Shown: positions 6,985 to 7,070 of the stretch, one piece after another | Numbering within the stretch: the stretch's first letter is position 1 | Layout: each line of letters begins with the position of its first letter | Origin: an uncultured Nitrospinaceae bacterium | GTDB taxonomy: Bacteria; Nitrospinota; Nitrospinia; Nitrospinales; VA-1 | NCBI GenBank assembly: GCA_905182935.1 | Contig: CAJJDL010000163.1 | Location: 1 to 13,952 of the forward strand | Length of the DNA stretch: 13,952 bases | Reading direction: 5' to 3' | Made by a program: the position numbers and the translations under genes | Notes under the pieces: model-generated | What the model was told of the DNA's origin: nothing | What the model saw: the letters and a program-made list of their open reading frames with translations, nothing else | The model's database searches: none

Positions 6985-6993
6985 TTATCCACA
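6985..6993 (+). promoter_or_regulatory. DnaA box (TTATCCACA), exact consensus
   Basis: An exact consensus DnaA box, oriented toward gyrB and 12 bp before the first DnaA-trio. This is the box expected to anchor DnaA before it extends onto single-stranded trios. Confidence 0.85.
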
Positions 6994-7005
6994 TATTAAC
7001 AGGCC

Positions 7006-7020
7006 CTACTACTACTACTA
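7006..7020. promoter_or_regulatory. Five perfect DnaA-trios and start of the unwinding element
   Basis: Five consecutive CTA triplets, so the complementary strand read 3' to 5' is GAT repeated five times, the preferred DnaA-trio that DnaA contacts in single-stranded DNA. They directly follow the spacer that ends in AGGCC (7001-7005) and lead into the AT-rich DNA at 7021-7070, which is the likely melting site. Confidence 0.75.
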
Positions 7021-7070
7021 AGCTTAATAACTACCTTTAAAATTATAATAATAGTAAATAAGAGAAAAAC

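Follow-up and report, generated by a model that had tools for sequence, protein, structure and literature searches.

A probable replication origin between dnaA and gyrB of a Nitrospina-like bacterium, with DnaA-trios and a replaced trio-reading residue in DnaA

Background

The closest described counterpart of the locus reported here is the basal unwinding system (BUS) of Bacillus subtilis. In the accessible sections of PMC8287927 the central base is treated as the conserved base of the DnaA-trio; no trios were reported in 15% of the genomes searched, and deviant trios without the middle adenine are suspected there. The available text of PMC10721633 describes Asn187 (and Glu183) of DnaA as holding the central adenine and Arg202 and Glu228 as holding the first guanine. 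Changing the central A to T or to G is defective in B. subtilis and changing it to C works, and in the same text none of the trio-contacting residues is universally conserved. For origins associated with IHF, excerpts of PMC10380432 give the consensus WATCAAnnnnTTR, and those of PMC10316083 place the nitrospinae among the phyla with IHF.

In the open-access literature (subscription papers, preprints and supplements being outside its scope) neither a Nitrospina origin module nor a relation between residue 187 and trio centres was found as the subject of a paper. The Nitrospinota are a phylum with marine nitrite oxidisers.

Results

The stretch of DNA analysed, referred to as the window, is 13,952 nucleotides long and is a whole contig (C163) of a 1.79-Mb bin that consists of 336 contigs and is 84% complete. 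The three named matches to the DnaA of the window are Nitrospinota/Nitrospina MAGs. The minus-strand genes are, in order, parB, a ParA-like ATPase gene, rsmG and an electron-transfer-flavoprotein-like pair, one member of which we take to be ETF-beta. These are followed on the plus strand by dnaA, gyrB and gyrA. The products of parB, rsmG, dnaA, gyrB and gyrA pass their NCBIfam cut-offs; the matches of the ParA-like and ETF-alpha-like proteins are below theirs. On the plus strand, dnaA is at 5474..6838 (TIGR00362 DnaA, 544.6 bits against a cut-off of 343.9), with GTG 5474, ATG 5477 and ATG 5483 as candidate start codons, and gyrB is at 7071..9674 (TIGR01059, 977.4 bits against 882.4).

A second full-length dnaA, with a dnaN-like gene after it, is found in the bin on contig C74 (G000, L004; positions 66-1565 and 1566-1729), and its gap has the array CTA CTA CTA CTA CTT. 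As a second origin of the same organism C74 was rejected, its DnaA being 43% identical to that of the window; a second DnaA of this strength is absent among the matches listed for 40 relatives. This contig is probably contamination of the bin.

The gap between dnaA and gyrB in the window contains, on the plus strand, an exact DnaA box TTATCCACA (6985..6993, 0 mismatches), a 12 bp spacer TATTAACAGGCC (6994..7005) and five DnaA-trios in the form of CTAx5 (7006..7020), which read 3'-GAT-5' on the minus strand. The 50 bp beyond (7021..7070) are 18% G+C, against 37% for the window, and are a probable unwinding element that overlaps the gyrB leader. The original prediction had given the box, the 12 bp spacer, the repeat and about 50 bp of AT-rich DNA these positions, all of which are exact, and had correctly located them between dnaA and gyrB. 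It had also likened their order and orientation to those of B. subtilis, and order, polarity, spacing and register do agree with the published BUS. Its description of the spacer as GC-rich holds only for the AGGCC end, as the spacer overall is 42% G+C. Against the BUS criteria of a box with up to 2 mismatches, a spacer of up to 16 bp and at least three consecutive 3'-NAN-5' trios, the window has 0 mismatches, 12 bp and five trios.

Other sequence features are present in and around the module. A weak second box-like match ATATTAACA (6993..7001, plus strand), with 3 mismatches, shares 1 bp with the first box, and box matching identified a distal DnaA-box-like site TTATTCACA on the minus strand (6854..6862), adjoining the dnaA stop. 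The -10-like element GGTATAAT (6877..6884, plus strand) resembles GnTATAAT and has a counterpart 80-135 bp upstream of the box in 49/49 gaps of related genomes. It is probably part of the gyrB promoter, and transcription of gyrB from it would cross the unwinding site. The sequence AATAGTAA, 3' of the trios at window positions 7050-7057, is present in 7/7 members of the genus read; on the minus strand it is TTACTATT, which may be a trio-like stretch in the opposed orientation.

The 1.79-Mb genome contains CTAx5 once and the backwards pattern also once, therefore the repeat was rejected as significant by itself. DnaA-box matches in the window are likewise not enriched, numbering 3 where 1.92 were expected and 6 where 3.73 were. 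Neither box nor trios are significant alone; their combination is, because a sequence-only profile of 58 positions, built from 28 genomes, matches 52 of 77 Nitrospinota genomes at E<=0.001. All but one of these matches (51/52) sit at dnaA/gyrB, with 23 of the 51 in genomes outside the profile. The other, in G066, was rejected: it holds a CTA TTC CCT CTT CTG-like stretch but is within an unrelated 528-aa reading frame, and no gyrB motif was found in the 3 kb read. There is one match per genome with the exception of G021, the second match of which is weak, has no trios and was rejected. No match to the profile was obtained in the 13 genomes of the class that belong to other families, several of which have trio arrays of their own.

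Within the order, the module is present in all 50 genomes with a dnaA match and, from the profile search, in G015, making 51. The gap was read in 49 of these, to which are added two modules on gyrB contigs with dnaA on a separate contig (G057 and G064); L145, L147 and the dnaA contigs of G057 and G064, which end inside the gap, were not used for it. Across the 49 gaps the box has 0, 1, 2 and 3 mismatches to TTATCCACA in 2, 29, 13 and 5 genomes, so that 44/49 are within 0-2 mismatches and 5/49 have three. Most spacers (45) are 12 bp long and the remaining 4 are 13 bp. The array length is fixed at five, in phase, and a sixth trio starting with C is found in 0/49. The trio register was anchored, and an independent scan, in which C or T scored at the first base and A and T scored equally at the centre, half a point over C/G, recovered the same register in 49/49. 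CTAx5 itself occurs in 9/49 gaps and in G064 (10/51), and similar arrays occur elsewhere; the array of the window is therefore regular, as had been claimed, but not unusually so.

In six relatives from the genus, identity to the window is 86-97% over box, spacer and trios, compared with 46-53% over the part of the gap that precedes them and 62-68% over the part that follows. Loss of the box and trios from the aligned gap of relatives had been named as evidence against an origin; instead the module is kept. In G027 (L093) an insertion extends the gap to about 750 bp and parts dnaA from the module; the -10-like element, box and trios form a single block that remains with gyrB. The data do not support a further half of the origin upstream of dnaA, where 32 of 43 stretches are without a box at up to 1 mismatch.

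The cumulative GC skew of the window, which covers this 14-kb contig of a genome in 336 contigs, has its minimum at 7116. In the closed genome of G009 (same family, 3.31 Mb), 5-kb bins that cover 496.5-1013 kb almost without breaks place the cumulative minimum at approximately 802-804 kb. The module is about 10 kb further on, dnaA occupies 812.6-814.0 kb, and the opposite switch is near 2.4-2.5 Mb. The skew of closed G025 (same order) reverses its sign between 1310-1330 and 1334.8-1354.8 kb, with dnaA at 1331.8-1333.2 kb. The skew of G008, a single-contig scaffold with Ns, is weak and noisy, with no clear switch at dnaA. The other sign against an origin that had been put forward, a skew minimum far from the gap, was thus not borne out in G009 and G025, and since the skew switches at or near dnaA and the module is kept, neither refuting observation occurred in these tests. 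Weighing G009 and G025 for and G008 against, the dnaA-gyrB gap is most likely the oriC of this Nitrospina-like bacterium, with the same placement in this Nitrospinota order.

The most degenerate arrays of the order are those of G008 and G016 (L017, L016), which read CAG CTT CTG CGA CCA/CTA. Sampled stretches of G008 are mostly 55-61% G+C.

The best conserved base in these trios is the first. Over 49 x 5 trios it is C in 232/245 and T in 13, so that each of the 245 has a purine there on the trio strand. At the centre T (201) is followed by A (39), C (3) and G (2), and the third base is A in 190/245. Where the central A of the trio strand is replaced, it is mostly by T (39 of 44 deviations). Minimum changes on a DnaA tree of 48 taxa (Fitch) are 10 for the first base, 30 for the centre and 34 for the third; the centre therefore changes three times as often as the first base. 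In 15/49 relatives no three consecutive central-A trios occur in any register up to 16 bp from the box. Because this run is absent, the standard trio rule fails in them, with box and frame kept. The extreme case is CTA CAA CAA CAA CAA in G052. The window keeps A in all five trio centres on the trio strand, therefore the change in the protein described below is seen in the window itself and the change in the DNA only in its relatives.

The trio-reading codons of the window dnaA (6032..6169, plus strand) align without gaps to B. subtilis chain 8btg_A. Kept are E183 (6032), I190 (6053), R202 (6089), K222 (6149), E223 (6152) and E228 (6167); changed are N187 to V (6044-6046), I193 to L (6062) and N196 to D (6071). 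Among 50 order-level DnaAs (G067, of another family, is outside this count), position 187 is V in 44 and I in 6, with Asn in 0/50, and E183, I190, R202, K222 and E228 are invariant in 50/50. An order-wide replacement of Asn187 by Val/Ile, with the first-base contacts kept, is newly seen here.

To these were added 30 bacterial dnaA loci from plasmid and phage collections, taken among the matches listed (40 of 51 and 38 of 38); 24 were picked for spread, and the other 6 were chosen once these 24 had shown the pattern. The DnaA of C235 was unreadable, and none of 11 DnaA loci on viral contigs was used. Acceptance of an array required a score of at least 11.5 and, at a distance of 10-14 bp, a box that had no more than 3 mismatches; in order-level genomes the anchored register was used. 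Of 26 Asn-type DnaAs, including contaminant C74 and family f9, 20 pass (C217, C220, C222, C230, C231 and C241 were dropped). The non-Asn types (V, I, T, A) contribute 53 accepted arrays, including 48 from order-level genomes (C227, C242, G067 and G068 were dropped). Y- and D-types (4) and G015, in which the residue was not read, are outside the count.

Centre bases on the trio strand are A 89, C 10 and T 1 in the Asn-type, which comes largely from other bacteria, and A 206, T 54, G 3 and C 2 in the non-Asn type. Genomes with at least one central C, T or G number 6, 1 and 0 in the former and 2, 32 and 3 in the latter (Fisher on C and T, p = 4e-5, which ignores relatedness within clades). Counted by genus or locus, C 6 and T 1 compare with C 1 and T 11 (p = 0.0017, with relatedness within clades again ignored). 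A one-base slip in G075 and G076 (f9) was corrected by hand; before correction T was present in 3 Asn-type genomes. The Asn-type C cases include four from the first 24 loci and two (C239 and C244) from the later six, to which C240 also belongs. The first base was G in 77/100 Asn-type and 245/260 V/I/T-type trios before the G075/G076 correction, both counts being biased upwards by a scan that favours C or T.

Other families and loci are also informative. In the same class, the four genomes of family f9 have N at 187 and CTA-type arrays, with one TAT in G072. The single f5 genome has T at 187 and the array CTA CAA CAA CAA CTA, the two f6 genomes have I or V and CAA-rich arrays, and the two f7 genomes have V and no clear array. 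Outside the Nitrospinota the counted non-Asn group consists only of C240 and C233. C240, a gut contig, has Val at 187, four CTA and one CAA, and its next frame resembles dnaN. C233 has Ala at 187 by alignment and an uncertain array, CAA AAT CAT CAT CAA. The gut contig L239, with an Asn-type DnaA, has CTA CGG CGG CGA CGA, in which the centre is C in 4/5 on the trio strand; it is a natural case of the A to C change that works in B. subtilis.

Discussion

We propose that the central bases tolerated in the trio are determined by residue 187. Asn187 would accept A or C, the bases with an amino group; Val, Ile, Thr or Ala would accept A or T, with specificity resting on the first-base guanine (3'-G[A/T]N-5'). 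Under this code, to which we give slightly less than an even chance, the Nitrospinota would be of the second type, which may include origins missed by searches for a central adenine. Natural variation fits the model of PMC10721633, as its available text presents it, from both sides, with C in the Asn-type and T in the non-Asn type. The published model of trio reading becomes testable through this pairing of residue 187 with trio centres.

It is also quite possible, if rather short of evenly probable, that the association is a by-product of ancestry, the Nitrospinota clade having Val/Ile for unconnected reasons and its origins, AT-rich for the most part, drifting from A to T at the centre. This would suit the origin of 48 of the 53 counted non-Asn genomes in one order, and A/T could be favoured by mutation bias. 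However, the pairing is also found in f5, f6 and the Val-type gut contig C240, and weakly in Ala-type C233, and the base that changes least is the first, which forms a G:C pair within AT-rich DNA (Fitch 10 against 30).

The gap itself is very probably an oriC opened by DnaA in a BUS-like manner. Because Val replaces Asn187 in the window DnaA, the main hold on the trio is probably at its first base. Domain IV of DnaA would bind the box at 6985, and by analogy with B. subtilis the AAA+ domains would polymerise 3' to 5' on the five minus-strand trios, the strand being stretched and captured. The AT-rich DNA would then open towards gyrB and helicases would load there, again as in B. subtilis. DnaA loading may be helped by the distal box (6854) and perhaps also by an IHF-type bend (6966-6978). 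Comparison of the DnaAs suggests that the first-base guanine, with Arg202 and Glu228 kept, holds the trio, and that a non-polar pocket takes A or T at the second base. With Val/Ile the amine-specific contact would be lost and the side chain could pack against thymine, leaving the guanine contacts to carry the phase. We infer that the module works like the BUS, with an altered base readout.

An origin of the E. coli type, in which IHF bends the DNA, DnaA on distal boxes captures single-stranded DNA and the trios are secondary, is unlikely. The IHF motif has R at position 6, and was searched for as WATCARNNNNTTR. The window has an IHF-site-like motif TTTCAATGTGTTA (6966..6978, plus strand) with 8/9 specified positions, taken as a lead only, and the genome has one IHF-beta gene above the NCBIfam cut-off and an IHF-alpha-like gene below. 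In 21/49 gaps the best match is 18-19 bp upstream of the start of the box, with up to 9 at one offset in shuffles, and the best match averages 7.39 of 9, compared with a mean of 6.63 for 300 shuffles, which reach 6.90 at most. A perfect motif, however, is present in only 1/49, and other best matches are elsewhere or on the opposite strand. Three control segments further upstream (means 6.27-6.78) also cluster, in 9, 12 and 11 genomes, therefore relatedness alone gives clustering at an offset. Besides the BUS box, the window gap has only two box-like sites at up to 2 mismatches. An IHF-type site near the box is suggestive only.

A purely regulatory site, through which DnaA would regulate its own gene or the gyrB promoter would be controlled, the CTA repeat being part of the leader, is highly improbable: the GnTATAAT-like element is upstream in all 49 gaps and the module is within the gyrB leader, but skew switches at or near the locus in two closed relatives, the phasing of box, spacer and five-unit array is strict, and the box has BUS polarity.

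As far as the available parts of the publications go, the origin proposed here is nearest to the B. subtilis BUS (PMC6669920, PMC8287927, PMC10721633). It shares the box TTATCCACA, a spacer inside the published peak of 10-13 bp, 3'-GAT-5' trios with matching polarity, AT-rich DNA on their far side and most of the trio-contacting DnaA residues. It differs in having five trios rather than six, gyrB rather than dnaN as the next gene, only a weak second box and Val for Asn187; its relatives also carry the A to T change at the centre that is defective in B. subtilis. With E. coli oriC and IHF (PMC10380432, in excerpt) it shares an IHF-like motif between a distal and a proximal box and IHF-type genes, whereas the module is beside dnaA, has clear trios and few boxes, and its IHF site is putative. 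The Thermotoga maritima unwinding element with eTrio TAG repeats (PMC10316083, likewise in excerpt) has tandem TAG on the bound strand, as here, but there the eTrio is located past the annotated trio, and the DnaA that it binds is anchored at distal boxes. The T. maritima DnaA has Asn at position 187 in the alignment.
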